Positions 1-15,355 of a stretch of DNA of 15,355 bases are shown in pieces (the first letter of the stretch is position 1; each line of letters opens with the position of its first letter). The translations under genes and the position numbers were made by a program. The notes beneath the pieces are model-generated. The model did not search any database and had not been told where the DNA came from. It saw nothing but the letters and a program-made list of their open reading frames with translations. Origin of the DNA: Alphaproteobacteria bacterium. GTDB lineage: Bacteria > Pseudomonadota > Alphaproteobacteria > UBA8366 > JADFVY01. The stretch spans positions 1 through 15,355 of the forward strand of contig JAOUMF010000006.1 in assembly GCA_029881615.1 (NCBI GenBank). The letters run 5' to 3'.

Positions 1-1
1 C

Positions 2-346: not shown

Positions 347-1407
347 AGCACATAATTCGATTGATGATTGCGGGATTCATGCTGGCGGGCATGGGTTCCG
401 GCTTCGCGCGGGCAGACAACCACGACTCCGACACCGGCGAGACCGCCACGACTGGCGCGCCCCCCGCGAACGGCGAGGCCGCCGAGGACGAGCCCGGGGT
501 CGATGGCGCGGGGCATGAGATTGTAATTGGCGCCGGCGCGGTCTCCGGCGTCTATTTCCCCGCCGCCGGTGCAATTTGCCGCGTGATCGCCGCGGGTGAT
601 GCCGAAACGCGCTGCCTCGTCGAAAGCAATGCCAATTCCTCGATCAATATCGAACGCCTGACCAGCGGCCTGCTGGATTTCGCCATCGTGCAGTCCGACT
701 GGCTGATGCATGCCGCGCGGGGCACCAACCTGTTTCAGGCCAACGGGCCCGACGAGTCCTTGCGCGCGGTAATGGCGCTGCATGCCGAACCCCTGACCCT
801 GATCGTGCGAACCGGCGCCGACATCGCGGGGCCGGCGGATCTGAAAGGCAAGCGCATCAGCGTCGGGCCGCCCTTCACCTATCAGCGCGTGCTGTTGGAA
901 ACGTTGCTGCGGGCCTGGGACATCGATACGGACGATCTGGCGCTGGTGCAGGAGATTACGGCCACCGAACAATTCGCGGCGCTTTGCGCGGGTGACATCG
1001 ATGCCGGCGCCATCGTAACGGCCCACCCCTCGCCGGCGTTGGCCGATGCGATGCGGCGGTGCGATCTGAAGCTGGCGCCGATTGCCGGCGACGAATTGAA
1101 TGAGTTGCTGGCTGCACGGCCGGAACTGTCGGCGGCGATGATCCCCGGCGGGCTCTACAAAGGGGTGCCGAACGCGGTTCCAACTTTTGGCCTGCGCGCT
1201 ATTCTGGCGTCCACGGTCAATGTCGAGGACAGCCTTGTCGAGCAGGTGACAGGGGCGGTTCTGGACGCGATGGCTGAGTTCACCGGTCAACATCCGGCAC
1301 TGGCCGGCATCACCGCGGACAGCATGACTTCCGCGAGCATTGCCTTGCCACTCCATCCCGGGGCCAAGGCGGCCATTCGCGCCAGGGGATTGCTGCCCGC
1401 CGAATAG
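343..1407 (+). CDS. TAXI-family TRAP transporter solute-binding protein, divergent copy (receptor 1)
   Basis: Predicted 354-residue periplasmic receptor of the TAXI class, which delivers a ligand to a TRAP permease. A Sec signal peptide (residues 1-24, ending ARA) is followed by an acidic, Gly/Pro/Ala-rich, probably disordered linker (about 25-57). The TAXI fold starts at EIVIGAGAVSGVYFP. Family landmarks shared with the two receptors downstream are the IG.G.VSGVYFP start, the IVQSD motif, an AEPLTLI strand, the MIPGGLYKG motif and the ending LPLHPGAKA. Four cysteines (79, 91, 215, 240) align with cysteines in the two sister proteins, so two disulfides are plausible. Odd: the GNPGSG ligand-site loop of the sisters is replaced here by VGPPFTYQR, and DVQY after QSD by WLMH, so the ligand may differ or binding may be altered. 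A GGGAAG ribosome site precedes the start, which overlaps the upstream stop. No terminator with a T tract follows. Confidence 0.9.
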   Translation: MKHIIRLMIAGFMLAGMGSGFARADNHDSDTGETATTGAPPANGEAAEDEPGVDGAGHEIVIGAGAVSGVYFPAAGAICRVIAAGDAETRCLVESNANSSINIERLTSGLLDFAIVQSDWLMHAARGTNLFQANGPDESLRAVMALHAEPLTLIVRTGADIAGPADLKGKRISVGPPFTYQRVLLETLLRAWDIDTDDLALVQEITATEQFAALCAGDIDAGAIVTAHPSPALADAMRRCDLKLAPIAGDELNELLAARPELSAAMIPGGLYKGVPNAVPTFGLRAILASTVNVEDSLVEQVTGAVLDAMAEFTGQHPALAGITADSMTSASIALPLHPGAKAAIRARGLLPAE

Positions 1408-1438
1408 CGAACCGTCGCGGCGCAAATCTATTTCACGG

Positions 1439-1468
1439 TTGACGCTGTGTGAACAGGGCGGGCATATA
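1439..1468 (+). promoter_or_regulatory. Candidate sigma-70-type promoter for TAXI receptor 2
   Basis: TTGACG (1439-1444) is followed after 18 bases by CATATA (1463-1468), inside an ATATATA run. It lies about 115 bases upstream of the chosen start of the second TAXI gene, in the only sizeable gap of the transport block (1408-1581). The -35 is good and the -10 approximate; spacing is one base longer than ideal. An imperfectly supported inverted repeat, AACCGT (1410-1415) with ACGGTT (1435-1440), overlaps the -35. Prediction by eye only. Confidence 0.4.
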
Positions 1469-1538
1469 TATACGTAACCATATGGATGGGGCGGCTTTGT
1501 AAATGCATGGTGAAATGCCGTGCCGCCCTGATAAATAG

Positions 1539-1553
1539 CGCTAGAACCTAGCG
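1539..1553 (+). promoter_or_regulatory. Small perfect inverted repeat in the leader of TAXI receptor 2
   Basis: CGCTAG-AAC-CTAGCG is a perfect 6-base inverted repeat with a 3-base centre, ending 28 bases before the ATG at 1582. It could be an operator half-site pair or a small RNA hairpin just upstream of the ribosome site. There is no T tract after it, so it is not an intrinsic terminator. Function unknown. Confidence 0.35.
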
Positions 1554-1581
1554 TAATATGAACATTAAACGGGAGCTTCCA

Positions 1582-2568
1582 ATGAAGATGAAATTTCTGA
1601 CAGCAGCCGCGATCGCAGCTGCCGCGACTATTGGCATGTCCACGGTCGGCTCTGGCCCGGCCCAGGCCGAACAACAGTTCGTCACCATCGGTACCGGCGG
1701 CGTTACCGGCGTGTATTACCCCACCGGCGGCGCGATCTGTCGCCTGGTCAACAAGAACCGCAAGGAACATGGAATCCGCTGTTCAGTGGAAAGCACCGGC
1801 GGCTCGGTCTACAACGTCAACACGATCCTGGCCGGCGAACTGGACATGGGCGTGGCGCAGTCGGACGTGCAGTACAATGCCTATACCGGTAGCGGCAGCT
1901 ATGCCGACAAAGGCCCCGCCAAGGAACTGCGCGCGGTGTTCTCGGTGCATCCCGAGCCGGTGACCATCCTGGCCCGTCGCGATTCCGGCATCACGCATAT
2001 CGATCAAATCAAGGGCAAGCGCTTCAATATCGGTAATCCGGGGTCGGGCACGCGCGACACCTGGGAGGTCATCGAAAAGGCGCTCGGCTGGAAACGGTCG
2101 GATCTGGCGCTGGGCGCGGAGTTGAAATCGGCCGAAACTGGTCAGGCCCTGTGCGACAACAAGATCGACGCCTATTTCTGGCTGGTCGGCCATCCCAATG
2201 CGCTCGCCAAGGAAACAGTGAGTTCTTGCGACGCGGTCCTGGTGGAAGTGTCGGGCCCCGGCATCGACAAACTGGTCAAGGACAACCCCTTCTATCGCTA
2301 TGCGACCATCCCCGGTGGCATGTACAGCAGCAATCCCAAGGACGTGAAGACATTTGGCGTCGGCGCCACTTTCGTGTCCTCCACGGCCGTATCCGAAGAG
2401 GTCGTCTATCAGGTCGTCAAGGCGGTCTTCGAGAATTTCGACGATTTCAGGAAGCTGCATCCGGCCTTCGCGAACCTGAAAAAGGAAGAAATGGTTCGTG
2501 ATGGCTTGTCGGCTCCGCTGCATGCCGGTGCGATCAAATATTACAAGGAAGCAGGTCTTCTGAAATGA
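1582..2568 (+). CDS. TAXI-family TRAP transporter solute-binding protein (receptor 2)
   Basis: Predicted 328-residue periplasmic TAXI receptor. I chose the ATG at 1582 because GGGAG lies 6 bases upstream and the protein then starts MKMKF with a normal Sec signal (cleavage after AQA, residue 29). An in-frame ATG at 1558 would add 8 residues but has no ribosome site. The mature part opens [15 protein letters not shown] and has the family motifs: [32 protein letters not shown], the [12 protein letters not shown] ligand-site loop, the [10 protein letters not shown] segment, the [13 protein letters not shown] motif and the C-terminal [14 protein letters not shown]. Cysteines 53, 67, 191 and 216 match those of the neighbouring receptors. 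It has the most canonical motifs of the three. With its own promoter candidate and a stem-loop right behind it, it may be expressed more strongly than the permease, as is common for binding proteins. Confidence 0.95.
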
Positions 2569-2573
2569 GTCCT

Positions 2574-2602
2574 TGGGGGGACGCCTTCGCGGGCGCCCCC
2601 CA
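2574..2602 (+). terminator. GC-rich intercistronic stem-loop behind TAXI receptor 2
   Basis: Six bases after the stop of the second TAXI gene, TGGGGGG (2574-2580) pairs with CCCCCCA (2596-2602). After a single bulged A, CGCC (2582-2585) pairs with GGCG (2592-2595); the loop is TTCGCG. The 11-pair stem is very stable, but only ATTCCTTTG follows, not a clean T run. It is therefore better read as a partial terminator or a 3' mRNA-protecting hairpin that lets the upstream receptor message accumulate. It ends 34 bases before the next start, in line with choosing 2637 as that start. Confidence 0.55.
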
Positions 2603-2636
2603 TTCCTTTGTCAGAGAGCTCGACAAGGATTGGGCC

Positions 2637-3626
2637 ATGCCCGAAGCCGCTGTGAAAATCATCCGGAATCTCAGGCTGGCAATCTTGCTGGCAGGGGTGG
2701 CTGCGACCTTTTTTCGGCCCCAACCGGCCGCCGCCGAACTGGATATCGTCATTGGAACCGGCAGTGTTCTCGGGGTTTACTTCCAGGTGGGCCGCGGCAT
2801 CTGCGGACTTGTCAATCAGAAGGTCAAGGACGTGAGATGTTCGGCGGTGCCAACCGCGGGATCGCTGTTCAATATGGACAGCGTCCGCGACAACGCCTTT
2901 GAAGTCGGGATCATTCAGTCCGACGTGCAGTACAAGGCGTTCAAACGTACCGGTGGGTTGGAATTCATCGATGTTGGATATGAAAATATCCGCACCCTGT
3001 TTTCAGTGCATGGTGAGCCTTTCACCCTGGTCGCCCGGCGAGATTCCGGGATCGGGTCGCTGGCCGATCTGGAAGGACGGCGCGTGAACCTGGGCAATCC
3101 GGGATCGGGTCAGCGCGCCACCATGCAGGTGGTCATGGACGCCATGGGGTGGACCCAGAAAAGCTTTGCGCTGGCTGGCGAATTGCCGGCTTCGCAGCAG
3201 TCGCTGGCGCTTTGCCACGGCCAGATCGAGGCAATGGTCTATGTTGTCGGGCATCCCAACAAATCCATCACCAAGGCGACGGACTTGTGCGATGCGGTGA
3301 TCGTGAACGTGGAAGGGCCGCAGATCGACCAGCTGGTCGCCGGAAATCCATACTATTCCTACATGACGATTCCGGGTGGCATTTATGTGGGCAATGACGA
3401 GCCCGTTCGAACCTTCGGTGTTCGTGCCACGGTCGTCGTGGCCGAGGATATGGACGACGACACGGCTTATGGAATCGTCAAGGCGGTGTTCGACAATCTG
3501 GAAAAATTCCGGCGCATGTATCCGGCTTTCGGACAGCTGGATCCCAAGAGCATGGCCACGGAAGGGTTGACCGCACCTTTGCATGAAGGTGCCAAGCGCT
3601 ACTATCGCGAAAAAGGCCTGATGTAA
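2637..3626 (+). CDS. TAXI-family TRAP transporter solute-binding protein (receptor 3)
   Basis: Predicted 329-residue periplasmic TAXI receptor. The frame is open from an ATG at 2565 that overlaps the previous stop, but that start would place the upstream stem-loop inside the gene and 24 extra residues before the signal peptide. The ATG at 2637 has AAGGA 7 bases upstream and gives a normal signal (hydrophobic core LAILLAGVAATFF, cleavage after AAA, residue 33). The mature protein opens LDIVIGTGSVLGVYFQ and carries GICGLVN, QSDVQYKAFKRTGG, GEPFTLVARRDSGI, the NPGSGQRATMQV ligand loop, PYYSYMTIPGGIY and the C-terminal TAPLHEGAKRYYRE. The four cysteines match those of receptors 1 and 2. It is clearly paralogous to receptor 2, so a tandem duplication is likely. 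The permease gene follows after 48 bases. Confidence 0.92.
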   Translation: MPEAAVKIIRNLRLAILLAGVAATFFRPQPAAAELDIVIGTGSVLGVYFQVGRGICGLVNQKVKDVRCSAVPTAGSLFNMDSVRDNAFEVGIIQSDVQYKAFKRTGGLEFIDVGYENIRTLFSVHGEPFTLVARRDSGIGSLADLEGRRVNLGNPGSGQRATMQVVMDAMGWTQKSFALAGELPASQQSLALCHGQIEAMVYVVGHPNKSITKATDLCDAVIVNVEGPQIDQLVAGNPYYSYMTIPGGIYVGNDEPVRTFGVRATVVVAEDMDDDTAYGIVKAVFDNLEKFRRMYPAFGQLDPKSMATEGLTAPLHEGAKRYYREKGLM

Positions 3627-3674
3627 CCGATCGCCGGATCGTACGGCGGCAAGAAACAGACAAGGGGACCCACG

Positions 3675-6263
3675 GTGACGGCAAACAACCCGTTGACCGA
3701 AGAATCGGTACAGGATTTCATTGCGGAGGTGGATACGGGCGCACGGGCGCCGACGGGCCACTTTTCGCGCAATGTGTTGTTTTACGTACCGATGGCCTGG
3801 TCGCTGTTCCAGCTATGGATCGCGTCCCCGTTGCCGTACTTGCTGGCGGATTACATCCCGCTGATGAACGATACCCATACGCGGGCGATCCATCTGGCGT
3901 TTGCGATTTTCCTGGCCTATCTGTCCTATCCGGCACTGAAACGATCGCCCCGTGACCGAATTCCGTTTCAGGACTGGGCGCTGGCGCTGATCGGTGCCTT
4001 CGCCGCCTGCTATATTGCGATCTTCGCCGTTGCGCTATCCACAAGGCCCGGATTGCCGATTACGGCCGATCTGGTTGCCGCCGGGGTCGGGATGGTCTGT
4101 CTGCTGGAGGCGACCCGCCGATCGCTTGGTCCACCGCTGTTGCTGGTGGCGCTGCTGTTCCTGTCCTATGTGTTTTTCGGTCATCTGGCGCCCGATGTGA
4201 TTGCCTGGAAGGGCGCATCCTTCACCAAGGCAATGTCGCACCAGTGGCTGACCCAGGAAGGCGTGTTCGGCATAGGGCTGGGTGTATCCACGACCTTTGT
4301 TTTCCTGTTCGTTCTGTTCGGCGCATTGCTGGACAAGGCCGGCGCGGGCAACTACTTCACCATGGTCGCCTTCTCGCTGCTGGGCCATCTGCGCGGCGGG
4401 CCAGCCAAGGCCGCCGTCGTATCCTCGGCGATGAACGGGATGATCTCGGGCTCGTCGATCGCCAATGTGGTTGTCACCGGTACCTTCACCATCCCCTTGA
4501 TGAAGCGGGTTGGATTTCCGGCCGAAAAGGCCGGCGCGATCGAGGTCGCTTCATCCACCAACGGTCAGTTGATGCCACCGATCATGGGCGCGGCGGCATT
4601 CCTGATGATCGAATATGTCGGCATATCCTATGTCGAGGTCATCAGGCATGCCTTCCTTCCAGCGGTTATCTCATACATCGCGCTGATCTATATCGTGCAT
4701 CTGGAAGCCTGCAAGGCCGGCATGGAAGGGTTGCCGCGGCGTACCGTCACCCCGTTGATGCAACGCATTTTCGGCCTGGTTATTACCCTGCTGGGAATGG
4801 TGATTCTGTCTGGCGTCATATATTTCGGTTTCAGTTGGGTGAAGGATGTTGCCGGGGATGCCTCGGCATGGATCGCCGGGGCGGTAATCCTGGCGGCCTA
4901 TTTCTTCCTGATGCGTATAGCCGCGTCGGTGCCGGATCTGGGCGACGAGGCCGCGATCACCAAAATGGAATATCTGCCGGAAACCGGACCGACCATAAAG
5001 TCCGGGCTGCATTTCCTGTTGCCGGTGGTGGTGCTGATCTGGTGTCTGGTGGTCGAGCGTTTCTCCCCCGGCCTGGCCGCATACTGGGCCTCGTTGCTGA
5101 TGATATTCGTGGTCGTTACCCAGGACATCGTGAAGAACTTTTTCCGCGGCGGTTCGCCCGACTATGCGAACGCGTTGCGCAGCGGGTTGCGCCACACCGC
5201 CGACGGCCTGGTCTTCGGCGCCCGCAACATGATCGGCATTGGAATCGCGACCGCGGTTGCCGGTATCGTCGTCGGCACGGTGACGCTGACGGGTATCGGC
5301 CTGGTAATGACCGAATTCGTCGAGTTCATTTCCGGCGGCAACCTGATCCTGATGCTGCTGTTTACCGCCTTCATCAGCCTGTTGCTGGGCATGGGTCTGC
5401 CGACCACGGCAAACTATATCGTGGTCTCGACCCTGATGGCGCCGGTAATCGTAACGCTGGGGGCAGAGCAGGGACTGATCGTTCCGTTGATCGCGGTGCA
5501 TATGTTCGTGTTCTATTTTGGCATTCTGGCCGACGATACACCGCCGGTGGGGCTGGCTGCGTTCGCGGCTGCGGCTATTTCGCGTGGCGACCCGATTCGT
5601 ACCGGTATTCAGGGCTTCATGTATGATATCCGCACCGCAATTCTGCCTTTCATGTTTATCTTCAATACCGAACTCCTGCTGATCGGCATCGAAAGCGTTT
5701 GGCATCTGATCCTGGTGGTGACGGCGGCGGTTGCCGCCATGCTGCTGTTTGCCGCCGGTACCCAAGGCTATTTCCTGGTGCGCAGCAAACTGTGGGAATC
5801 GCTGGCGATGATCCTGATCGCCTTCACCCTGTTCAGGCCGGGATTCTGGATGGATATGGTGTCGCCACCGCTGGAGACTCGTCCTCCGCAGGACATCATG
5901 GCGATCGCAGAGAAACAAGATCCGGACGCCTTTCTACGCGTTACCATGTCCGGAGAAACGATTGACGGCGATTTTGTAACCAGGATCGTGCCGCTGCCGT
6001 TGGGCCCGGCGGCTAGCGGCCCGGAACGGCTGTCCCACGCGGGCGTTGAAATCCGTGAGGATGGCGGCAAAGTGCTGGTCGATAATATCGTCTTCGGCAC
6101 CGCCGCCGAAAAGGCGGGCGTCGATTTCGATTGGGAAATAATTGATGTGCAGGCCGAGGCCGACCAGCCGCCCAAATATTTGTTCTACGTCCCGGCATTG
6201 TTACTTTTTGTCGTTATCGTGGTCACGCAGCGCCGCCGCAAGGCCGCGCTGGCGCCTGCCTAG
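3675..6263 (+). CDS. TAXI-type TRAP transporter fused permease (DctQ-DctM) with C-terminal DUF3394-like region
   Basis: Predicted 862-residue inner-membrane protein that imports the ligands captured by the TAXI receptors, driven by an ion gradient (known for TRAP carriers). GTG start with AAGGGG about 7 bases upstream. The small-subunit part is about residues 30-180. The large DctM part (about 195-690) shows the hallmark segments SGSSIANVVVTGTF (near 258), SSTNGQLMPP, GMGLPTTANYIV (near 572) and ADDTPPVGLAAFAAA (near 619). After the transport core, a membrane segment, a roughly 110-residue soluble stretch and a final membrane segment (YVPALLLFVVIVV) end in RRRK. The layout resembles the DUF3394 region known at the end of some fused TRAP permeases. 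The soluble part contains FGTAAEKAGVDFDWEIIDV, which looks like the core of a PDZ domain. The usp gene follows after 12 bases. Core call very firm; PDZ likeness is by eye. Confidence 0.95.
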   Translation: MTANNPLTEESVQDFIAEVDTGARAPTGHFSRNVLFYVPMAWSLFQLWIASPLPYLLADYIPLMNDTHTRAIHLAFAIFLAYLSYPALKRSPRDRIPFQDWALALIGAFAACYIAIFAVALSTRPGLPITADLVAAGVGMVCLLEATRRSLGPPLLLVALLFLSYVFFGHLAPDVIAWKGASFTKAMSHQWLTQEGVFGIGLGVSTTFVFLFVLFGALLDKAGAGNYFTMVAFSLLGHLRGGPAKAAVVSSAMNGMISGSSIANVVVTGTFTIPLMKRVGFPAEKAGAIEVASSTNGQLMPPIMGAAAFLMIEYVGISYVEVIRHAFLPAVISYIALIYIVHLEACKAGMEGLPRRTVTPLMQRIFGLVITLLGMVILSGVIYFGFSWVKDVAGDASAWIAGAVILAAYFFLMRIAASVPDLGDEAAITKMEYLPETGPTIKSGLHFLLPVVVLIWCLVVERFSPGLAAYWASLLMIFVVVTQDIVKNFFRGGSPDYANALRSGLRHTADGLVFGARNMIGIGIATAVAGIVVGTVTLTGIGLVMTEFVEFISGGNLILMLLFTAFISLLLGMGLPTTANYIVVSTLMAPVIVTLGAEQGLIVPLIAVHMFVFYFGILADDTPPVGLAAFAAAAISRGDPIRTGIQGFMYDIRTAILPFMFIFNTELLLIGIESVWHLILVVTAAVAAMLLFAAGTQGYFLVRSKLWESLAMILIAFTLFRPGFWMDMVSPPLETRPPQDIMAIAEKQDPDAFLRVTMSGETIDGDFVTRIVPLPLGPAASGPERLSHAGVEIREDGGKVLVDNIVFGTAAEKAGVDFDWEIIDVQAEADQPPKYLFYVPALLLFVVIVVTQRRRKAALAPA

Positions 6264-6275
6264 GGAGAAGCCAAT

Positions 6276-6704
6276 ATGTACAAGAACATCCTGCTCGCCA
6301 TTGATCTGAACGAGCCTTCTTCCTGGGAAAAGGCGCTTCCGGTGGCCCTGGCGCAGGTCAGGGGTGGCGGCGAGAATCTCCATCTGATGACCGTGGTGCC
6401 TGATTTCGGGATGGCCATTGTCGGCTCGTTCTTTCCCGCTGATTACGAGAAGAAGGCGCTGGCCGAGGCGGACGAGGCGCTGGGCGCGTTCGTGGCGGCG
6501 AATATCCCCGGCGAGATCAATGTCGCCCATACCGTCGCCCATGGTGCGATTTACAAGGAAGTGCTCGCCGAAGCGGAACGCATCGGCGCCGACCTTATCG
6601 TCATGGCATCGCATCGGCCCGCGCAGAGCGATTACCTGCTGGGTCCGAACGCGGCGCGGGTCGTGCGCCATGCCACCTGCTCGGTGCTGGTGGTCCGGGG
6701 CTAG
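6276..6704 (+). CDS. Universal stress protein, UspF-like, TRAP-associated
   Basis: Predicted 142-residue cytoplasmic Usp-fold protein. It starts YKNILLAIDLNEPS and ends with DLIVMASHRPAQSDYLLG and NAARVVRHATCSVLVV. This ending resembles the ASHRP...YLLGSNAA...VVRHA pattern of E. coli UspF rather than the classical UspA end. The usual nucleotide-binding series G-x2-G-x9-G-S/T is altered: the early glycines are replaced by Ala and Arg/Pro (as in UspF) and the last position is GP rather than GS. A GGGAGAAG ribosome site lies just upstream, 12 bases after the permease stop, so it is very probably in the same operon. A Usp encoded with a TRAP transporter has precedent: TeaD of Halomonas binds ATP and modulates TeaABC. 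A similar regulatory role is inferred here. Confidence 0.9.
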   Translation: MYKNILLAIDLNEPSSWEKALPVALAQVRGGGENLHLMTVVPDFGMAIVGSFFPADYEKKALAEADEALGAFVAANIPGEINVAHTVAHGAIYKEVLAEAERIGADLIVMASHRPAQSDYLLGPNAARVVRHATCSVLVVRG

Positions 6705-8476
6705 CGGTTCAGGGGGCGCGTTGCGCTTTCCAGCCAGGCTGCCGTCTTATCATCGACCTGCGAAATCAGAGCTTCACGCACCCGCCCATGGTAAGCGTTC
6801 AACCATTCGGTTTCGGCTTGAGTCAACAATGACGGGTCCACCAGATCCAGATCGATGGGGGCCAGGGTAAGGGTTTCAAAGCCAAGCATCGGCTTTTCGG
6901 CGCCCTCGATCTCCAGCGCGGTGACGCAAACCAGATTTTCGATGCGAATACCGTACGCGCCCGTCTTGTAGTAGCCGGGCTCATTGGAAATGATCATGCC
7001 GGGTTTCAGCGCCACGCTGTTGGGTATCTTGGAAATCCGCTGCGGCCCTTCATGAACGCCCAGATAACTGCCGACGCCATGGCCGGTGCCGTGATCATAG
7101 TCCAATCCCGCCTGCCACAGCGCGTGCCGCGCAAGGATGTCCAGTTGCGAACCGCTGGTGCCTTCCGGGAAACGCACAGTGGCAAGAGCGATATGACCCT
7201 TGAGCACCCGGGTAAAGCGGTCGCGCATTTCCGCTGTCGGATCACCGATGGCGACCGTGCGAGTCACGTCGGTCGTGCCATCGCGATACTGTCCGCCGGA
7301 ATCGACCAGATACAGCTCGCCCAGGCCCAGCATGCGGTCGCTTTCCGGCGTCACCGAATAATGCACGATGGCACCGTTCGGACCGGAGCCGGAAATAGTG
7401 CGGAAGGAAAGATCGGTAATGTGCTCGCCCTCGAAGCGCAGAGCTTCCAGCCTGTCCGCCGCCGCGATTTCGCCGACGCCGCCCTTGGGGGCCTCCGCCG
7501 CCAGCCAGGCGAGGAAGCGGCTCAACGCTACCCCGTCGCGGCGATGGGCCTTGCGCATGCCCTCGATCTCCACCTGATTCTTGCAGGCCTTGGGCAGCTG
7601 GCAAGGGTCGTCGGCGCGCACTATTTGTGCCCCGGCCTTTCCCAGCCGTTCGAACACCAGCGCCGCCGTGCCAGAGGGATCGGCCAGCACCCGGTTATTC
7701 CCCAGTGCCCATAGCGCGCCCTCGAATTCGGTGGCGTCGCGAATTGTCACGTCCCCACCCAGATGTGCCGCCAGATCAGGCCCTATCTTTGCGGGGTCAA
7801 CGAACCATTCCGCGCGCCCGGTGGCATACAGGATGGCAAAGGAAAGCGGCAGCGGGCTGTGCGCTACATCGCCGCCGCGGATATTCAGTAGCCAGGCGAT
7901 GGAATCCGGTGCCGTGACGACGGCGCTGTCGGCGCCCGCGTCAGCCAGGCTTTTTGCCACTCGCTGACGTTTGGCAGCGGAGGATTCACCGGCAAAGGCC
8001 TCGTCATGCGGCCTGACGGGGGCGGCGGGCGCGGCCGGGCGATCGGTCCAGGCGGCATCCAGCGGGTTATGTTCCACGGCCACGATCTCGCCGCCCGCCT
8101 TCTCCGCCGCCTTGCGCCAGACATCCAGCCCGCGTTCGGTATGGAGCCAGGGGTCGTAACCCAGCCGACCGCCCCTGCCCAGATGTTCGGCGACCCAGTC
8201 CTTGGGCGGTTCGTCGCTGATATGGCGGATGTCGAACAGGCCGGCATCCACCTGCTCGCGAATCTGGATGGTATAGCGCCCGTCGGTAAAGGCCGCCGCA
8301 TTGTCCTTCAGAATTACAGCGGCCCCGGCCGATCCGGTAAAGCCGGTGATCCAGGCCAGTCGTTCCGCGCTGGGCGGCAGATATTCATTCTGGAATTCAT
8401 CGGCATGGGGCACGATGAAACCATCCAGCCCCTGGCGCGCCAATTCAGCCCGTAATTTATCCAGCCTCGCCTTCAT
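6701..8476 (-). CDS. Xaa-Pro aminopeptidase (aminopeptidase P, M24B family, long form)
   Basis: Predicted 591-residue cytoplasmic metallopeptidase that removes an N-terminal residue preceding proline. It has the long three-domain form: two creatinase-like N-terminal domains (about 1-135 and 160-315), the pita-bread M24 catalytic domain (about 320-530) and a short C-terminal M24 tail. The five metal ligands are visible: Asp392 (DSGGQYRDG), Asp403 (DGTTDVTRT), His466 (GTGHGVG), Glu499 (SNEPGYY) and Glu513 (IRIENLV). No signal peptide. The ATG has a GGAGG-type site a few bases upstream. It lies 77 bases behind the dehydrogenase gene on the same strand, where TTGACG about 40 bases before the start could be a -35. 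Its stop codon shares the CTAG at 6701-6704 with the convergent usp gene. The M24B assignment is firm; actual peptide substrates are unknown. Confidence 0.95.
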   Translation of the reverse strand: MKARLDKLRAELARQGLDGFIVPHADEFQNEYLPPSAERLAWITGFTGSAGAAVILKDNAAAFTDGRYTIQIREQVDAGLFDIRHISDEPPKDWVAEHLGRGGRLGYDPWLHTERGLDVWRKAAEKAGGEIVAVEHNPLDAAWTDRPAAPAAPVRPHDEAFAGESSAAKRQRVAKSLADAGADSAVVTAPDSIAWLLNIRGGDVAHSPLPLSFAILYATGRAEWFVDPAKIGPDLAAHLGGDVTIRDATEFEGALWALGNNRVLADPSGTAALVFERLGKAGAQIVRADDPCQLPKACKNQVEIEGMRKAHRRDGVALSRFLAWLAAEAPKGGVGEIAAADRLEALRFEGEHITDLSFRTISGSGPNGAIVHYSVTPESDRMLGLGELYLVDSGGQYRDGTTDVTRTVAIGDPTAEMRDRFTRVLKGHIALATVRFPEGTSGSQLDILARHALWQAGLDYDHGTGHGVGSYLGVHEGPQRISKIPNSVALKPGMIISNEPGYYKTGAYGIRIENLVCVTALEIEGAEKPMLGFETLTLAPIDLDLVDPSLLTQAETEWLNAYHGRVREALISQVDDKTAAWLESATRPLNR

Positions 8477-8553
8477 CCGCCGCCTCCGCCGTTCGATATA
8501 CCGTCAAGCTAGGGCCGCGACGCCCTTCCGGCAACCCACAAGCGAGGGTGCCT

Positions 8554-9861
8554 TTATTCCGCCGGCACCGGGTGATATTTGCCGTCCGTGCCCAGGAACT
8601 CCTTGCCGTCGTCGCGATAGAAACTATCCGCCCCGGCGTCGCGCAGGATCGCCAGCATGTGCGGCACCTGATGGGCTTCCTGTTCCAGCCGGGTTATGAC
8701 CGCGGACGGGCCGATTTCATCCAGCAGTTCGAACGGACCTTTCTTCCAGGCAAAACCCCAGCGCATGGCGCGGTCCACATTGACGATATCGTCGGAAATC
8801 TGCGGCACCAGGTCGGCGGCATAGACCAGCGCGCCACCCATACAGGCCCAGGCTAACCGCCCCTCGACATCCTCGGCGAACAGCAGCGACCTGGCGTCGC
8901 CATGGCTGGGCGTAACTTCCATGGCCGGCCGCCACGCGCCAGTCAACAGGTCGAAGGTTTCCTTCGTGCGGCTGCCGTCCTCATGCTTGGTCAGCTTGTA
9001 GAAGCCGCCGCCGGTCTTGCGGCCAAGCTGGCCGCGCGTCATCATCTCTTGCTCGGCGGGCGGGAAGTTCAGATAGCCCCGGCCGGCATCGTCGGCCGGC
9101 AGGTTGCGATCCAGGTTCTTGCCCACGAAGTCCATGATATCAAGGCCGATCAGATCGATCAGCCCGTAAAGCCCGGTCGAGGGCAGCCCCACCGGCGCCC
9201 CCATCAGCGCGTCGACCATTTCCATGGAGAGACCCTGTTCCAGCCCGGCCCGCGCCTTGTGCAGCCCGGCCAGCATCCAGTAACAGCCGATGCGGTTGCC
9301 GATGAAGTTCACCGTGTCCTTGGCATGGACCACGCCCTTGCCGAGACGCTTGCCGCAGAATTCGGCCAGCGCATCCACCGCATCCTGGGTGGTGTCGGCG
9401 TCGGGCACCAATTCCATCAGCTTCATTACCTTCACCGGATTGAAGAAATGGGTGACAGTCACGTCGCGGCGCAGGCGGTCCGGCATGCCTTCGGTGATCG
9501 AACGCAGCGGAATGCCCGAAGTGTTGGTGCTGACCACCGAGCCGTCCTTGCGCAGCGGCTCCAGCTTTTCGAACAGCGCGCGCTTGGTGGCGAGATCCTC
9601 GATCACCGCCTCGCAAATCCAGTCGAATTCCGCAATTTTTGCCAGTTCATCGAACGACCCCGTCTCGATCCGCGCCGCCGCCTCGGGCGTGTCGACCGCC
9701 GGCGGGCGCCCGTTGACGATCCGGTCCAGCGCCTTTTCGGCGGCTTCGTTCGTTACGTCCAGCAACAGCACGCGGCATCCGGCCTCGGCGCAGGCGCCGG
9801 CGATCCCGGCCCCCATGGTGCCACCGCCCAGAACGGCGACGGAGTCTATTTTACGGGTCAT
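8554..9861 (-). CDS. 3-hydroxyacyl-CoA dehydrogenase, FadN-like but without enoyl-CoA hydratase domain
   Basis: Predicted 435-residue cytoplasmic NAD-dependent enzyme of beta-oxidation (3-hydroxyacyl-CoA to 3-ketoacyl-CoA). I chose the ATG at 9861, with AAGGA 7 bases upstream and MTRKIDSVAVLGGGTMGAG right at the NAD fold. The frame extends to 9930, but those 23 residues run through the promoter region. Seen: GxGxxG at Gly12-Gly14-Gly17; the catalytic segment HFFNPVKVMKLME with His138 and Glu150 of the His/Glu pair; NFIGNRIGCYWM; a first dehydrogenase C-terminal domain (about 187-290); and a second, diverged one ending with AMRWGFAWKKGPFELLDEIG. The tail SFYRDDGKEFLGTDGKYHPVP is the kind of sequence that leads into the hydratase domain in FadN-type fusions (about 770-790 residues), yet the gene stops there. 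No hydratase sequence follows before the aminopeptidase gene. It is divergent from the lipoprotein module. Confidence 0.93.
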   Translation of the reverse strand: MTRKIDSVAVLGGGTMGAGIAGACAEAGCRVLLLDVTNEAAEKALDRIVNGRPPAVDTPEAAARIETGSFDELAKIAEFDWICEAVIEDLATKRALFEKLEPLRKDGSVVSTNTSGIPLRSITEGMPDRLRRDVTVTHFFNPVKVMKLMELVPDADTTQDAVDALAEFCGKRLGKGVVHAKDTVNFIGNRIGCYWMLAGLHKARAGLEQGLSMEMVDALMGAPVGLPSTGLYGLIDLIGLDIMDFVGKNLDRNLPADDAGRGYLNFPPAEQEMMTRGQLGRKTGGGFYKLTKHEDGSRTKETFDLLTGAWRPAMEVTPSHGDARSLLFAEDVEGRLAWACMGGALVYAADLVPQISDDIVNVDRAMRWGFAWKKGPFELLDEIGPSAVITRLEQEAHQVPHMLAILRDAGADSFYRDDGKEFLGTDGKYHPVPAE

Positions 9862-9873
9862 GCGGTGGTCCTT

Positions 9874-9927
9874 TTCACGCGTCAAATCAGCGCGGAAATG
9901 GATAGTGGATCGGGGCGCTGCTTGCAA
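9874..9927. repeat. 54-base duplicated intergenic element, copy 1
   Basis: This block matches 12597-12650 without gaps, 41 of 54 bases by hand alignment. The best-kept parts are TTCACGCGTCAAATCA and GTGGATCGGG. It contains an operator-like inverted repeat, CGCG(T) and (G)CGCG, separated by 7 bases. It stands between the divergent dehydrogenase gene (- strand) and lipoprotein module A (+ strand), 149 bases before the start of the latter. The rest of the gap up to 10075 holds a GC-rich stretch and TATACA at 10015-10020, without a matching -35, so I cannot place the + strand promoter. Confidence 0.75.
9899..9927 (-). promoter_or_regulatory. Candidate promoter of the 3-hydroxyacyl-CoA dehydrogenase
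   Basis: On the minus strand, TTGCAA (9927-9922) is followed after exactly 17 bases by TATCCA (9904-9899). Transcription would begin near 9892, about 30 bases before the ATG. That point lies inside the inverted repeat CGCGT-7-GCGCG (9879-9895), a classic place for a repressor operator. By eye only. Confidence 0.45.
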
Positions 9928-10075: not shown

Positions 10076-10657
10076 ATGAATTCCAGCAGAACAGATCGTC
10101 ATTCACTTTCAAGAGTCATACCGTTTCTGTTTACGCTAGCGATCCTTTCAGGATGCGCGATGGGGGCCGCGTATAAAGAGGATTTCAGCCAGGTAACACT
10201 GACCACAGTGGAGATGGGCAAGGTTACGATGGGCCTGCCCGCCGGCTGGAAGCCCGATCCCGACAGCGTCGATGGTGAAAAAGTTGTCGCGGCCTTCGTC
10301 AACGACGCGATCGGCGGCTATGGCGAGGTGAAATGTTATTCTGTTCTGGTCAGCTTCAATACAATGCAGATTTTCGGTCAAAATGACGGAATCATCGCAG
10401 CGGGCGCCGATCCGGTACATGTCGCCGGTCCGTGGGCGTTGGGCGCTAACAAATATTCGCGTGTATTCGATGTTTACACGGGAACCGTGACCCGAAAGGG
10501 TCAGGAAGTCCAGGTGGCGTCCTATACCGGATACAACATCAACACGGCGCTTTCACCCTGTTACGCGGCGGTTCTGGTGGTCATGCCCGATGACAAATAT
10601 AGCGGGGAATTCAATCCCGTATTCGCCGCCATGCTTGACAGTGTCGTCACGCACTGA
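10076..10657 (+). CDS. Small predicted lipoprotein of module A
   Basis: Predicted 193-residue lipoprotein. A signal with a basic start and hydrophobic core ends in the lipobox ILSGC (Cys27); Ala at +2 would favour outer-membrane sorting. GAGG lies 5 bases before the ATG. The mature part has the pattern VTMGLPAGWKPD near its start and a later GTVTRKGQEVQVASYTGYN strand pair. This is reminiscent of PsbP/Mog1/DUF1795-like small alpha-beta proteins, a resemblance by eye and not a firm family call. Two cysteines (87 and 162) align with Cys90 and Cys163 of the paralogue at 13432-14007, with the same GW, GTVT..GQE and GYN landmarks, so a conserved disulfide is likely. It sits 12 bases before the propeller lipoprotein gene, implying co-translation and probably a shared complex. 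Function unknown. Confidence 0.82.
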   Translation: MNSSRTDRHSLSRVIPFLFTLAILSGCAMGAAYKEDFSQVTLTTVEMGKVTMGLPAGWKPDPDSVDGEKVVAAFVNDAIGGYGEVKCYSVLVSFNTMQIFGQNDGIIAAGADPVHVAGPWALGANKYSRVFDVYTGTVTRKGQEVQVASYTGYNINTALSPCYAAVLVVMPDDKYSGEFNPVFAAMLDSVVTH

Positions 10658-10669
10658 CGAGGGCATGCC

Positions 10670-12562
10670 ATGAAAAGGAACATTATCTTTTGCTGCGCTG
10701 CCGCGGCGATGTTGCCGCTGTCGCTGGCCGGTTGCATGACCACCGTTACGCAGAAACCCATGCTCGTGAAAGAGGCGCGCATACGGGCCGAAGCCGATAA
10801 AAACGCGCCGGCGGCCTGGAAACTGCCATTGGGCAGTGGCCAGATCGACGATATGACCATTCTGTCACCAGGGCGGCTTCTTATGACGATCCGCAAGGCA
10901 GCTTCCCTGACCGGTGGCCAGCACGTGATGCTGGTGGATATGGATACCGGAAAACAGTTGTGGCGCTATGACGGGAAAGGGCACAAGGGCGAGTTCCAAC
11001 GTGTTTTGGCGTCGCCGGATACGGTTTTATACCGTTTCGACAGCGAGGACGGCGAGGAACTAACGCTGGTCGCCCTGGACGCCGCAAACGGGTCCGAGCG
11101 CTGGACCCAGACCATGGACGGCGGGTCTGTCATGTTTCACCCGCTGCTGGCGGACGGCCTCGTACTCGTCATTGGAAATCTCAAGGACAGCATCACCGCC
11201 ACCGCCCTCACGCTATCATCGGGCCATAAGGGCTGGGAGCGAAAGTTTGCATCCGCGACAGCCGGTGCGGGTGATCGGCCCTTACCGCTGATAACACCCG
11301 ATGGCATGTGGTTTTTCTACGATGGGGTTGAGAAAATCTCGACCGGTAATGGCAACACCATCTGGCGCCGGGGCGATCTGTCCGCTGAAACCGGGCTGTC
11401 GCCGCGGCTTGTGGAAGATGCCCTTTATCTCATGGATACCGGACGGACCCTGCACCGGCTGGCCGCCGCCTCCGGCAAGAGCCAGTGGCGGTCTACCGCA
11501 CCAGCCGACACCGCCAGGGTCACCAATATCTATCCGCTCGGCGACCGAATTTACCTGCGGGGGATGAATCCCGACGCCCCCACGGCGGCCAAACTGCTTG
11601 TTTCGGTCCGGGCGGGCGACGGCAAGCCACAATGGCGATATGGTAGCCAGGAGTTCATCGTCAGCAATCTGATCGAAGACGACGGAAAACTGTTTTTTGC
11701 AACCCGGTCCCACCTGGGGGCGGTCGACGCGGTCTCCGGAAAGCCTCTTTTCTTGACGGAAATCACCAATTCCGGACGGACATTCCCGGTTCAGATACGA
11801 CTTTTCGGCGGCAAGGTCGCGTTCATCGGCGAACTCATCATCGCCGCCGTCGATACGAAGCAAGGCAAGACAGTCTATTCGCACGGATTTGACCCCGTCG
11901 ACGATTTTGCAAGCCTGAACAATATCGAATCCACCATCCGCAACAACACGGGCGGAGGGCGCGGATCGGATAATGCCTTCGGCGACATGGCCACCCGCGC
12001 CGCCGCCAATTCAGCGCGCTATCAGGAACAATCCAACCATTACGCCACAATCGCAAGCCGGGAAACGGGCTTTAAGGCCCAAAGCGCAAAGATCAAGGCC
12101 GACATGAATGCCGACTTCGCCAAGGCGGAAATGAATGTGTCGCTCATCTCCAGTTCCCTTGCCCTCGGCCAGGCGATGGCGGAAGCCCAGTGGAACGCCG
12201 ACCTGAAAGCGGAAGTCAGGCGTCAGGAATATTTGCGGCGGGTAATTACATTCCTGTATCCGGCAATGGAGCAGGGTGAGTACGTCTACCGACCGATGCG
12301 CGATGCACGATCGAGGACGGCGCAGTTCGCAGGGGTGGCCGTGATTCATATGCCTTCGGGCAAGATCGCCGAAACCAGCCTTTCGGCGCAGCACTTTATC
12401 TACGGTCTGTGGAACCTCATCGATTTCGACAAGGGGCTGGTCTACCACAACGGTGTTGGCCTGGACCCCGCCGATTACACCTATGACGGCCAGACCGGCC
12501 ATTTCCCGACCGATTACTTGAATACCTTCCTCATCGCACAGCCAATCAGGATTCCGCGATGA
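10670..12562 (+). CDS. PQQ/BamB-like beta-propeller lipoprotein with coiled and novel C-terminal region (module A)
   Basis: Predicted 630-residue lipoprotein; signal ends LAGC (Cys22), so probably anchored at the outer membrane facing the periplasm. Residues about 45-405 carry blade-closing motifs at regular spacing: LWRYDGKG (near 97), ERWTQ (143), GWERK (188), IWRRG (230), QWRST (271), QWRYG (321), then diverged LFLTE (357) and VYSHG (400). That count of eight matches the BamB-type propeller. PQQ itself need not be bound. Past the propeller come a Gly/Asn-rich hinge (about 422-434), a long charged, Ala-rich helical stretch (about 440-530) and a final domain of about 100 residues with YVYRPMRDARSR and FIYGLWNLIDFDKG, which I do not recognise. 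It is much longer than BamB (about 390). The N-terminal 79 propeller residues share 47 identities with the module B propeller. Scaffold or complex-assembly role inferred only. Confidence 0.88.
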   Translation: MKRNIIFCCAAAAMLPLSLAGCMTTVTQKPMLVKEARIRAEADKNAPAAWKLPLGSGQIDDMTILSPGRLLMTIRKAASLTGGQHVMLVDMDTGKQLWRYDGKGHKGEFQRVLASPDTVLYRFDSEDGEELTLVALDAANGSERWTQTMDGGSVMFHPLLADGLVLVIGNLKDSITATALTLSSGHKGWERKFASATAGAGDRPLPLITPDGMWFFYDGVEKISTGNGNTIWRRGDLSAETGLSPRLVEDALYLMDTGRTLHRLAAASGKSQWRSTAPADTARVTNIYPLGDRIYLRGMNPDAPTAAKLLVSVRAGDGKPQWRYGSQEFIVSNLIEDDGKLFFATRSHLGAVDAVSGKPLFLTEITNSGRTFPVQIRLFGGKVAFIGELIIAAVDTKQGKTVYSHGFDPVDDFASLNNIESTIRNNTGGGRGSDNAFGDMATRAAANSARYQEQSNHYATIASRETGFKAQSAKIKADMNADFAKAEMNVSLISSSLALGQAMAEAQWNADLKAEVRRQEYLRRVITFLYPAMEQGEYVYRPMRDARSRTAQFAGVAVIHMPSGKIAETSLSAQHFIYGLWNLIDFDKGLVYHNGVGLDPADYTYDGQTGHFPTDYLNTFLIAQPIRIPR

Positions 12563-12596
12563 TCGAGTTGATCTTTCGGGGCACGTGACGGTGTTC

Positions 12597-12650
12597 TTCA
12601 CGCGTCAAATCAACGCGGTAAAGGGCCGTGGATCGGGATCAGGTTGGCAA
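12597..12650. repeat. 54-base duplicated intergenic element, copy 2
   Basis: Same block as 9874-9927 and in the same orientation relative to the downstream lipoprotein genes. Here the inverted repeat is perfect: CGCGT-CAAATCA-ACGCG (12602-12618). The minus-strand -10 of copy 1 (TATCCA) is changed to GGCCCT, so the minus-strand promoter seems lost. The right end of the element supplies TTGGCA, a plausible -35 for the + strand. The 12563-12830 gap otherwise holds an AT-rich island and two small hairpins, listed separately. Confidence 0.75.
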
Positions 12651-12672
12651 AACGCCCAGCGTCGAGTATTAA
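12644..12672 (+). promoter_or_regulatory. Candidate sigma-70-type promoter for module B
   Basis: TTGGCA (12644-12649) and TATTAA (12667-12672) are separated by exactly 17 bases. The -10 lies at the left edge of an AT-rich island in otherwise GC-rich DNA. The inverted repeat of the duplicated element ends 25 bases upstream of the -35, a position usual for an activator or upstream operator. The leader to the ATG at 12831 would be about 150 bases. Confidence 0.45.
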
Positions 12673-12697
12673 ACATGGAATAATATGTGTAATGAGC

Positions 12698-12713
12698 AGT
12701 TATATTAATAACT
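12698..12713. other. AT-rich inverted repeat in the module B leader
   Basis: AGTTAT-ATTA-ATAACT: 6-base perfect arms around a 4-base centre, in a run (about 12663-12725) markedly richer in A and T than anything nearby. It lies just downstream of the candidate promoter and could be a regulator site. It may equally reflect relaxed composition at a duplication junction. Confidence 0.35.
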
Positions 12714-12767
12714 AGACCAGATAATACCGCTGAACCGGGCACCCGATCCCGGATGGCGCGACCCGAG

Positions 12768-12785
12768 ACCAGCCGTAACGCTGGT
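12768..12785 (+). other. Hairpin in the 5' leader of module B
   Basis: ACCAGC-CGTAAC-GCTGGT forms a 6-pair stem with a 6-base loop followed by TTCCC. It lies 45 bases before the start of the next gene and could shape the leader RNA. The stem is short and the T run is only two extra bases, so terminator activity is doubtful. Confidence 0.3.
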
Positions 12786-12830
12786 TTCCCGATAACGCCA
12801 ACAAAATGAAACAAACATAAGGATCAGGGC

Positions 12831-13376
12831 ATGCTGAGATTCGGAATCCGTCTATTGGCCGTGACCGCGTTGGTTTTGCTGGCCGGCGCGGCTAATGCGC
12901 AAACCAGTTTCGAAGAACTTTCCGGCAAGTTCGCGATCGATCTGCCGGACGGTTATGAACTACAACCGCAGAAATACTCCATACTGTTCCAATTTTGGGG
13001 TCCCGCCGGCCAGATCATGATGGTGTTGGAGGAAGGCGGGACGGACCTTGCGGAGAGCTATGAGTCGGCCTTGTCCAATCTGGACGGCACGTTGAAAAAC
13101 CCCGAACCCATAGCGCCAGTCGTCACCATGACCCTGAACGGCAGTCCTGCAAAATGGGGCATCTACAAGGGAACGGTTGAGAGTGATGGCAAGACGGTTC
13201 CACTTTACACCTATGTGGGCAGCATGCTGATTGATGATGGCAGCGTATATTTCCTGTCATTTGTCAGCGAGGGAAGTCACCTGACATGGGGCGAAAAGGT
13301 CACGAAGTCGTTTTACAGCCTGCGCAACGTGGACAGCCCGCTGACCGGCGCACGCGACGTCAAACCGGCTGGCTAA
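12831..13376 (+). CDS. Small secreted protein of module B (PsbP/Mog1-like appearance)
   Basis: Predicted 181-residue exported protein. TAAGGA lies 7 bases before the ATG. The signal peptide ends ANA (residue 23) before QTSFEEL; there is no lipobox cysteine, so it should be soluble in the periplasm. The mature part reads GKFAIDLPDGYELQ, then GTVESDGKTVPLYTYVGSM and VYFLSFVSEG. This repeats the landmarks (DLP.GW/GY, GTV.S.G..V, Y.GY/YVG) of the two small lipoproteins of modules A and B, so I infer a common fold, though it lacks their cysteine pair. It is the first gene of module B, 55 bases before the lipoprotein gene; module A has no equivalent. Function unknown. A hairpin spans its stop codon. 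Confidence 0.8.
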   Translation: MLRFGIRLLAVTALVLLAGAANAQTSFEELSGKFAIDLPDGYELQPQKYSILFQFWGPAGQIMMVLEEGGTDLAESYESALSNLDGTLKNPEPIAPVVTMTLNGSPAKWGIYKGTVESDGKTVPLYTYVGSMLIDDGSVYFLSFVSEGSHLTWGEKVTKSFYSLRNVDSPLTGARDVKPAG

Positions 13377-13385
13377 GCGCCAGCC
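13367..13385 (+). other. Stem-loop with the stop codon of the upstream gene in its loop
   Basis: GGCTGGC (13367-13373) pairs perfectly with GCCAGCC (13379-13385). The 5-base loop TAAGC contains the TAA stop of the secreted-protein gene. There is no T tract, so transcription probably continues into the lipoprotein gene. It may stabilise the upstream message or be chance. Confidence 0.4.
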
Positions 13386-13431
13386 CGATCATTCGGCAAA
13401 ATCTGAAATTCAAATAAGGCAGGAGGTTTGT

Positions 13432-14007
13432 ATGTTCATCGTTTCCATAACTTTAAAGCACGTATTCAGGTTGGCGGCCATTGCCGGAACGGCCCTTATA
13501 TTGAGCGGCTGCCTTGGTGGCCCCAGCATCCCCGATTATCCGGGAAGCGGCGCCGCGGAACCCGCGAAACTGACGGAAGTCGTCTTTGAAAAAGCGACAA
13601 TCAGCCTGGCGCCCGGTTGGGACAAAGACACAAGCATGGTCAACAACGACACCATCGTCGCCGGCTTCAAGAAAGGCCCGTCCATCGGGTATGTCCAATG
13701 CATGAGCTCGTTGCTCAAAGCCGATGTCGTCGGTGACGTCATGCGTGAGGGCGTTGCGGGGGCCAGTGGCAATGCGCAACTGGTTCGTGGGCCTTTTGCC
13801 GTGGCCGGGGGACTTAACAAGCCTTACATCGAAGTTCACCAGGGCACGGTAACGTCGGAAGGCCAGGAAATCGACGCCGCTTTTTACATCGGATACAACA
13901 GCTTCCGCTATCTGGGATGCAATTACGGCGTCATGCTGATCCACACGGGCACCCCGAATCCGGAGACCGAAGCCGAATTCGTCGCGATGTTCCGCACGCT
14001 CAAATAA
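13432..14007 (+). CDS. Small predicted lipoprotein of module B, paralogue of the module A lipoprotein
   Basis: Predicted 191-residue lipoprotein; hydrophobic signal ending LILSGC (Cys27), Leu at +2, fitting outer-membrane sorting. A full AGGAGG lies 5 bases before the ATG, the strongest ribosome site in the window. The mature part shares with the module A lipoprotein the ATISLAPGW start, QCMSSLL with Cys90, GTVTSEGQEIDAAFYIGYN, a second cysteine (163) at nearly the same spacing, and an ending in FVAMFRTL versus FAAMLDSV. Overall similarity is moderate, so the duplication is old. The propeller gene follows after 14 bases, the same order as in module A. Family and function not recognised beyond a PsbP/Mog1-like look. 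Confidence 0.82.
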   Translation: MFIVSITLKHVFRLAAIAGTALILSGCLGGPSIPDYPGSGAAEPAKLTEVVFEKATISLAPGWDKDTSMVNNDTIVAGFKKGPSIGYVQCMSSLLKADVVGDVMREGVAGASGNAQLVRGPFAVAGGLNKPYIEVHQGTVTSEGQEIDAAFYIGYNSFRYLGCNYGVMLIHTGTPNPETEAEFVAMFRTLK

Positions 14008-14021
14008 GCGGAGGTGGCCAT

Positions 14022-15355
14022 ATGTCGAAATTATCCGTTTCGCGCGCGGCAATTGTCGCGCTGGCCTTCCTGACCGCGGGATGCCTGCAAACCAACTTCC
14101 AGGTTCCGGTCAGGGTTTCCGACCAGAATCTTCGGGCGGAGGCGGAAAAAGGCCGGCCGGCGGCGTGGAAGCTGCCGCTGGGCGCGGGACGGATCGACGA
14201 CATGGCATTCCACTCGCCCGGGCGGCTGCTGGTCAGCCTGCGCAAGAACCAGTCCGTCGCCGGCGAACAGTACGCCATGCTGGTCGATATGGCGACGGGC
14301 CGCCCCTTGTGGCGATACGAGCCGGCGAACAGGAAAGGCGAATACAGCCGGGTTCTGGCAACGCAGGACATCATCCTTTACGCCTTCCATAACGAAGACA
14401 AAGTCACCCTTGTGGCGGTGTCGGCGTTGGATGGAACCGAACGTTGGGTGGCACCTGACATCCAGGGAAGCGCCCGCTTCCAACCGCTTCCGGACCAGGG
14501 TGTGATCCTGGCAACCAGTGCCGGCAAGGGCACGGCGACGCTCGCCGCTTACGACCTGGGCTCCGGCATGATTCGATGGAATCGCCAGTTCAACCTGCCC
14601 CAGGATATCGCGATACCGGCCATGCGGGTGACCGCGCAGGGCGAGGTATGGACCTTCCATGGGGCGGTCGAAAAGCTCTCGGCGAAGAACGGCAAGACAG
14701 TCTGGCGCCGCGACGGCATAAGTCTTGCCGGCGCATCACCGGCGCTTGATGGCGATTCATTGTATTTGGTTGACACTGCGGGCCTGATTCAACGGCTTTC
14801 GGCTGGCACGGGAAAAACCATCTGGACCAAGGCGCCGCCGGCGGGCGTGACCGTCACCAATATTTTCCCGCTCAACGACCGGGTCTATCTGCGCGGTAGC
14901 GATGCAAACAGCAAGAAATACCCGTTTATCGCCATGGATCGGCGAACCGGTCGCATCCTTTGGCACCGGATCACCAAGGAACCGATCGTCAGCAATTTGC
15001 TGGAACATGGAGGGCGGGTATTTTTCGCAACGCCTTCGACCGTTGGCGCCCGGGATCTGACCAGCGGGAAGAGTTATTTCGAGGAGACAATCACCAATTC
15101 GGGCCGCACCTACCCCGTTCATCTGAAACGATTTGGCAACAAGGTCGTTTTCATCGGCGAACTGATCGTGGCCGCGGTTGATACAAAAACAGGCAAAAAA
15201 CTCTATTCACACGGGCTGGACCCGGTGGATCTTGAAGCCAGCATGACCTCGCTGGACGCCAGGCTTGAAAAGCTGCAGGCCAAACAGGCCGCAGGTTCCG
15301 GCGACTCTTCGTCCGGCGCCATCGCGATGGCCGACTTCCATTCGGGGATGGCGCA
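14022..15355 (+). CDS. PQQ/BamB-like beta-propeller lipoprotein of module B, 3' end missing
   Basis: Predicted lipoprotein, 444 complete codons before the right edge, no stop reached. GGAGG lies 7 bases before the ATG; the signal ends LTAGC (Cys21). Blade motifs follow the same rhythm as in the module A propeller: LWRYE (near 95), ERWVA, IRWNR, VWRRD, IWTKA, ILWHR, then a TNSGRTYPV segment and LYSHGLDPVD. Residues 44-122 match residues 45-123 of the paralogue at 47 of 79 positions. After the propeller the two diverge: here a short helical segment (SLDARLEKLQAKQ) precedes a Ser/Gly-rich linker, and the next residues ADFHSGMA recall the GDMATRAAANS part of module A. A similar C-terminal extension is therefore expected beyond the edge. 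Role unknown; probably partners the lipoprotein upstream. Confidence 0.88.
   Translation, partial: MSKLSVSRAAIVALAFLTAGCLQTNFQVPVRVSDQNLRAEAEKGRPAAWKLPLGAGRIDDMAFHSPGRLLVSLRKNQSVAGEQYAMLVDMATGRPLWRYEPANRKGEYSRVLATQDIILYAFHNEDKVTLVAVSALDGTERWVAPDIQGSARFQPLPDQGVILATSAGKGTATLAAYDLGSGMIRWNRQFNLPQDIAIPAMRVTAQGEVWTFHGAVEKLSAKNGKTVWRRDGISLAGASPALDGDSLYLVDTAGLIQRLSAGTGKTIWTKAPPAGVTVTNIFPLNDRVYLRGSDANSKKYPFIAMDRRTGRILWHRITKEPIVSNLLEHGGRVFFATPSTVGARDLTSGKSYFEETITNSGRTYPVHLKRFGNKVVFIGELIVAAVDTKTGKKLYSHGLDPVDLEASMTSLDARLEKLQAKQAAGSGDSSSGAIAMADFHSGMA

Follow-up and report, generated by a model that had tools for sequence, protein, structure and literature searches.

Which system is encoded by the two tandem gene modules at the end of contig JAOUMF010000006.1, each of which contains a small lipoprotein gene and a propeller gene? 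The window analysed here is this whole contig (15,355 nt) from GCA_029881615.1, a metagenome-assembled genome (MAG) of an Alphaproteobacteria bacterium that consists of 705 contigs and is 81.8% complete. From position 10076 onward the window carries five plus-strand genes for exported proteins, P0001 to P0005, as judged from their N-termini by eye and from the lipobox pattern. The first-pass annotation had read four of them as duplicated modules of a lipoprotein and a BamB-like propeller, possibly a second outer-membrane assembly complex of the BAM type (BAM, β-barrel assembly machinery). We favor a different reading, to which we assign a probability of about 0.45: the modules may represent a rare two-part exported unit, in which a PsbP-fold partner and a propeller would scaffold a membrane complex, comparable to Ycf48 and CyanoP in the case of photosystem II.

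The two modules are old copies of each other

Module 1 consists of the small lipoprotein P0001 (10076–10657, 193 residues) and the propeller lipoprotein P0002 (10670–12562, 630 residues). Module 2 contains the small lipoprotein P0004 (13432–14007, 191 residues) and the propeller P0005 (14022–15355), of which 444 residues can be read before the contig end cuts it off. The gene order is the same in both modules, and the lipoprotein and propeller genes are separated by 12 bases in module 1 and 14 bases in module 2. The open reading frames and the paralogy of their products thus confirm the duplication proposed at first. P0002 and P0005 are identical at 197 of 415 positions (E 8e-121), and our recount for the first blades gave 48 identities in 80 (alignment columns 41–120), practically the 47 in 79 reported earlier. 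P0001 and P0004 share 57 of 191 residues (E 3e-18), and their mature parts align with a score of 164, compared with 57 for the best of 500 shuffles. The cysteine pair ascribed to the lipoproteins was found as two mature cysteines in all five lipoprotein sequences; the first forms an invariant column, but the second is not perfectly aligned, being one column off in P0001.

The propeller genes are 57.6, 65.8 and 38.1% identical at codon positions 1, 2 and 3, respectively, a pattern like that of protein-coding genes under purifying selection. The agreement of 38% in third and 66% in second positions argues for a duplication that is old and whose proteins have remained under constraint. The tree of the propeller domains (19 sequences) points in the same direction: sequences of the module 1 type (7 rows) and of the module 2 type (7 rows) form separate clades with starred support, and therefore the duplication must be old. 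Five distant propellers, with long branches, fall outside the starred branch that unites both types. For P0010 and P0017, one member of each clade, the longest contig measures 24650 bases in either case, and for that reason the two are probably neighbours; if so, two or more lineages have retained both copies.

An overlooked gene and a two-domain partner in distant loci

The two-gene description of each module turned out to be incomplete: the pair of lipoprotein and propeller genes is real, but module 2 also contains the gene of P0003 (12831–13376, 181 residues), an exported protein without a lipobox. P0003 has no meaningful match in Pfam or NCBIfam (best TraW_N, E 0.4). It matters because of the gene that we found beside the propeller gene in other genomes. 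Three distant loci include DNA upstream of the propeller: L010 from a Gemmatimonadota MAG, L011 from a Deltaproteobacteria MAG, and L019 from a further genome recovered in the Gemmatimonadota search. In all three, the gene directly 5′ of the propeller gene encodes one exported two-domain protein of about 339–354 residues; in these loci, the co-occurrence check proposed for the two families is positive. The fused-partner genes of L010 (6730–7875; 354 residues counted from an inner ATG in the protein search) and L019 (2235–3299) overlap the propeller gene by 4 bases, and that of L011 (648–1667) stops 8 bases before the propeller GTG at 1676.

P0003 matches the first half of the fused partner (57/169, E 1e-24, and 54/160, E 4e-25; 34% identity), and a profile comparison relates the second half (columns 200–341) to the small lipoproteins (E 8.2e-7). 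When all ten partner sequences were aligned, the first half of the fused proteins was covered by P0003, and the second half by the five lipoproteins in their mature form. In the window, then, the fused partner is probably present in split form, with P0003 as the counterpart of its domain 1, and P0001 and P0004 as the counterparts of its domain 2.

The structure model of the fused partner contains two copies of the Mog1/PsbP/DcrB fold, with a predicted local distance difference test (pLDDT) of 80. On this model, the partner domains are predicted to have the Mog1/PsbP/DcrB fold, and a PsbP-like fold of P0001 would follow from homology. By sequence alone, P0003 scored 44 and 45 against P0001 and P0004 (shuffle maxima 68 and 54), and domain 1 scored 33 against domain 2 in the fused partner P0030 and 43 in another, P0032 (48 for the shuffles of either). 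As these scores lie below the shuffle maxima, the likeness of the two domains comes from the model only. A sequence search of the PDB with P0001 gave a best E of 1.9. The Pfam models of DcrB (DUF1795), PsbP and LpqN matched none of the 10 members at E up to 5, in a search whose HMMER filters drop most weak matches, and three of the 10 matched NPCBM_assoc weakly (best E 0.0017). What sets the partner apart from the DcrB, LpqN, Mog1 and PsbP-fold proteins is that two such domains occur in tandem, either fused or split, and next to a propeller gene.

One objection is that these exported proteins are merely co-transcribed and do not touch each other. We consider this improbable, as the adjacency is kept in all three distant loci though the other scanned neighbours differ: Pfam scans found an amidohydrolase, DUF6599 and DUF362 in L010, and a permease and a radical SAM protein in L011. 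In a fourth locus, L012, titled uncultured Muricauda and broken off inside the propeller gene, they found a histidine kinase and a response regulator. At the contig end of L012 (1–150), the open propeller frame is preceded by a run of glycines and by sequence rich in stops.

Lipid anchors, too, speak against mere co-transcription. The lipoboxes claimed for the window were recovered by pattern in three products (LSGC in P0001 and P0004, LAGC in P0002), but the LTAGC of P0005 misses the pattern; it does satisfy looser lipobox rules. All five small lipoproteins and 11 of the 14 propellers of the two clades match, the exceptions being P0005 and P0014, with the weaker TAGC, and P0016, which has no cysteine there. 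Of the five distant propellers, P0020 and P0022 match, in contrast to P0018, P0019 (L010) and P0021 (L011); a lipobox cysteine is also missing from the propeller of L019 and from the fused partners. In this small sample, in those loci and in the window, lipid anchors are present or absent together wherever both genes are readable.

The propellers are BamB-like but do not look like BamB proper

The propellers had been described as BamB-like with a large extra C-terminus, and this holds: they match PF13360, have an eight-bladed fold like that of BamB, and are extended by about 220 residues. In P0002, the propeller (about 50–406) is followed by long helices (416–532) and a beta domain (538–625). 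The extra C-terminus can be read directly in P0002 only, and P0012 and P0014, relatives of P0005 (84.7 and 94.6% identical), carry one. Among families with a solved structure, BamB is closest in sequence; it is also the best curated match and among the best structural matches, in a comparison that covers mainly residues 50–529.

One could suppose that the modules form an accessory BAM module, in which the propellers bind the POTRA domains of BamA in the manner of BamB, with the lipoproteins as additional subunits that serve certain outer-membrane proteins. The closeness to BamB and the lipoboxes of the window proteins favor this view, but other results make it rather unlikely. On TIGR03300, the model of BamB, the window propellers reach 54.7 and 64.4 bits (P0005 being truncated). 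A BamB-like hit in each of the six other family genomes scores 184.8–206.5 bits, likewise below the curated cut-off of 285.2. As the relatives own a separate BamB and the window propellers score weakly on its model, the idea of a second BAM-type complex finds no support, though a BAM-related role of some kind keeps a low probability. The BamB gene of a genus relative (G030), the one locus whose neighbours were read, adjoins der, and GOX1969 of Gluconobacter also stands beside der (PMC11302035). The window propellers are not beside der on the visible side: their upstream neighbours are 3-hydroxyacyl-CoA dehydrogenase (3HCDH) and TRAP genes, and their downstream neighbours lie beyond the contig end. 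Moreover, the propellers of L010, L011 and L019 have no lipobox cysteine, and the family has the roughly 220 extra residues. The BamB residues reported to contact BamA are L173, L175, R176, D227 and D229 (PMC3489874). In a joint alignment with BamB, whose propeller register is unreliable, the BamA-contact motifs were out of register. Altogether, the window propellers do not look like BamB proper.

The source MAG gave no strong BamB hit, and der was not found either (E up to 1e-30, in a search without a positive control). We considered that the window propellers replace BamB in this genome, and rejected it: as der is also missing and the MAG is 81.8% complete, the der–bamB locus is probably just absent from the assembly. 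The remaining PQQ hits of the MAG are fragments resembling a PQQ alcohol dehydrogenase, on two contigs, and a presumed YVTN-type repeat protein (both names are our own reading).

A rare and scattered family

A protein search with P0002 against 5.8 billion sequences, in which scoring was confined to the 7997 candidates with the most shared words, returned 19 rows, 17 of them spanning 88–100% of its length. A profile scan of genome contigs found three loci, L010, L011 and L012. A profile of the propeller C-terminal region was also run over sampled genomes, with scoring limited to a capped number of first-look candidates per genome. It was positive in 1 of 398 genomes of the phylum of the window (its own), in 2 of 298 of the L010 phylum (of which G681 is new), and in 1 of 297 and 1 of 395 of the phyla of L011 and L012, respectively, both being the genomes we started from. 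With the four already known genomes left out, 1 of 1384 was positive. Within the order, P0002 matched only its own genome among 43. The fused partner is equally rare, with three rows in the protein search, two of which are the L010 and L011 proteins or near-copies. A first contig scan for relatives gave none in 22, a plasmid search for the propeller returned 5 records covering at most 45% of it, and none of 35 pattern hits in viral contigs was confirmed. On these counts, the propeller family is rare and scattered.

The site of the modules

The gene 5′ of module 1 encodes a 3HCDH on the minus strand, starts at 9861, and is 89–91% identical in all three genus relatives. DNA homology to five relatives ends at 9864–9927. 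The modules are absent past this boundary in all five, two of whose stretches extend just 434 and 707 bases further. A 73-base direct repeat brackets module 1: copy 1 (9842–9914) comprises the 3HCDH gene start and its native upstream flank, and copy 2 (12565–12637), which begins just past the P0002 stop codon, includes a relic start of the neighbouring 3HCDH gene. The copies are 75% identical (score 59, compared with at most 31 in 500 mononucleotide shuffles), a higher conservation than that of third codon positions in the modules. The repeat core does not occur elsewhere in the assembly at up to 3 mismatches. The repeats may be the scar of a local duplication, may have arisen by recombination at a later time, or may be regulatory DNA that has been retained; module 1 could be lost if the two copies recombined. 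The G+C content is 54% in P0001, 55% in P0003 and 50% in the stretch between the modules, compared with 64% in the 3HCDH gene and 61% in bases 1–8500. The lower G+C within 10076–13376 is weakly in line with acquired DNA. Scans for promoters and terminators gave no signals above those of shuffles.

Further upstream, positions 343–6263 hold three consecutive genes of TAXI-type (NMT1_3) binding proteins and one large DctM/DUF3394 TRAP permease gene, downstream of which lies a universal stress protein gene (6276–6704).

What the unit may do

Family searches (Pfam, NCBIfam, PADLOC) and the literature, with poor coverage of subscription journals, revealed no named system and no described pair of propeller and PsbP-fold genes, in agreement with the first-pass annotation. 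Two known systems come close. BamB shares with the window proteins a PQQ_2-type propeller (PF13360), export and the lipobox. The window family differs from it in the separate BamB of all six relatives, the weak scores on the BamB model, the helical and beta C-terminus, and the PsbP-fold gene adjoining wherever upstream DNA is seen. Ycf48 and CyanoP are a propeller lipoprotein and a PsbP-fold lipoprotein on the same membrane face that are thought to interact, as stated in PMC8038367. The window family likewise pairs a propeller with a predicted PsbP-fold protein, but Ycf48 is seven-bladed, and the window has no photosystem genes. We know of no operon pairing of Ycf48 and CyanoP.

In the reading we favor, the window would hold a compact exported unit in two copies that diverged long ago; in each, the gene of a PsbP/Mog1-fold partner would immediately precede that of a BamB-like propeller. 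The partner would once have been a single two-domain protein, which is split here into the genes at 12831 and 13432, and of which module 1 would have kept only the second domain. Partner and propeller might bind to one another at the outer surface of a membrane, where the propeller with its helical arm would be the scaffold, and the PsbP-fold protein an adaptor holding a membrane complex during assembly or stress. The two copies may serve different clients. The bolder version, a portable two-gene assembly chaperone outside photosynthesis, doubled here to serve two different membrane complexes, one per copy, is a conjecture to which we give little credence.

Several points weigh against the scaffold reading. 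The pairing rests on three distant loci and the window, and a third gene common to the distant loci, which could hint at a client, was not seen among the 10 products scanned or, by eye, in L019. The match of domain 2 is weak by single sequence (E 1e-4 for P0004, 0.044 for P0001), the fused-partner model was built on 9 rows and has a predicted template modelling score (pTM) of 0.54, and the structure models are of single chains, not complexes. Finally, the rarity and patchy presence of the family argue against a housekeeping role.

Alternatively, the pair could bind or sense a small ligand, a lipid or a damaged protein, with the PsbP-fold domains capturing the ligand and passing it to the propeller, an option that we regard as doubtful. 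Least plausible is that the PsbP-fold proteins are immunity-like lipoproteins for self-protection, with the propeller merely co-transcribed: the type VI immunity proteins Tsi3 and Tli4 are among the fold matches of the partner, and duplication and patchy presence fit immunity genes, but the partner adjoins the same propeller family in all three distant loci, PADLOC gave no match, and no effector-like product was seen in Pfam scans of 9 products from the window, which ends at 15355, and of 10 from the distant loci, a selection of the genes there, or by eye in the L019 flanks.

If the pair were only co-transcribed or a minor BAM accessory, it would be just one more uncharacterised lipoprotein family. 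The pairing is also a caution against annotating such propellers as BamB, as is done at source for the full-length homologues P0009, P0020 and P0022. Two common exported folds, the BamB-type propeller and PsbP/Mog1, the latter predicted from the model, are encoded as one pair in distantly related bacteria. This pairing gives each protein a testable partner, and may be a non-photosynthetic parallel to Ycf48 and CyanoP.
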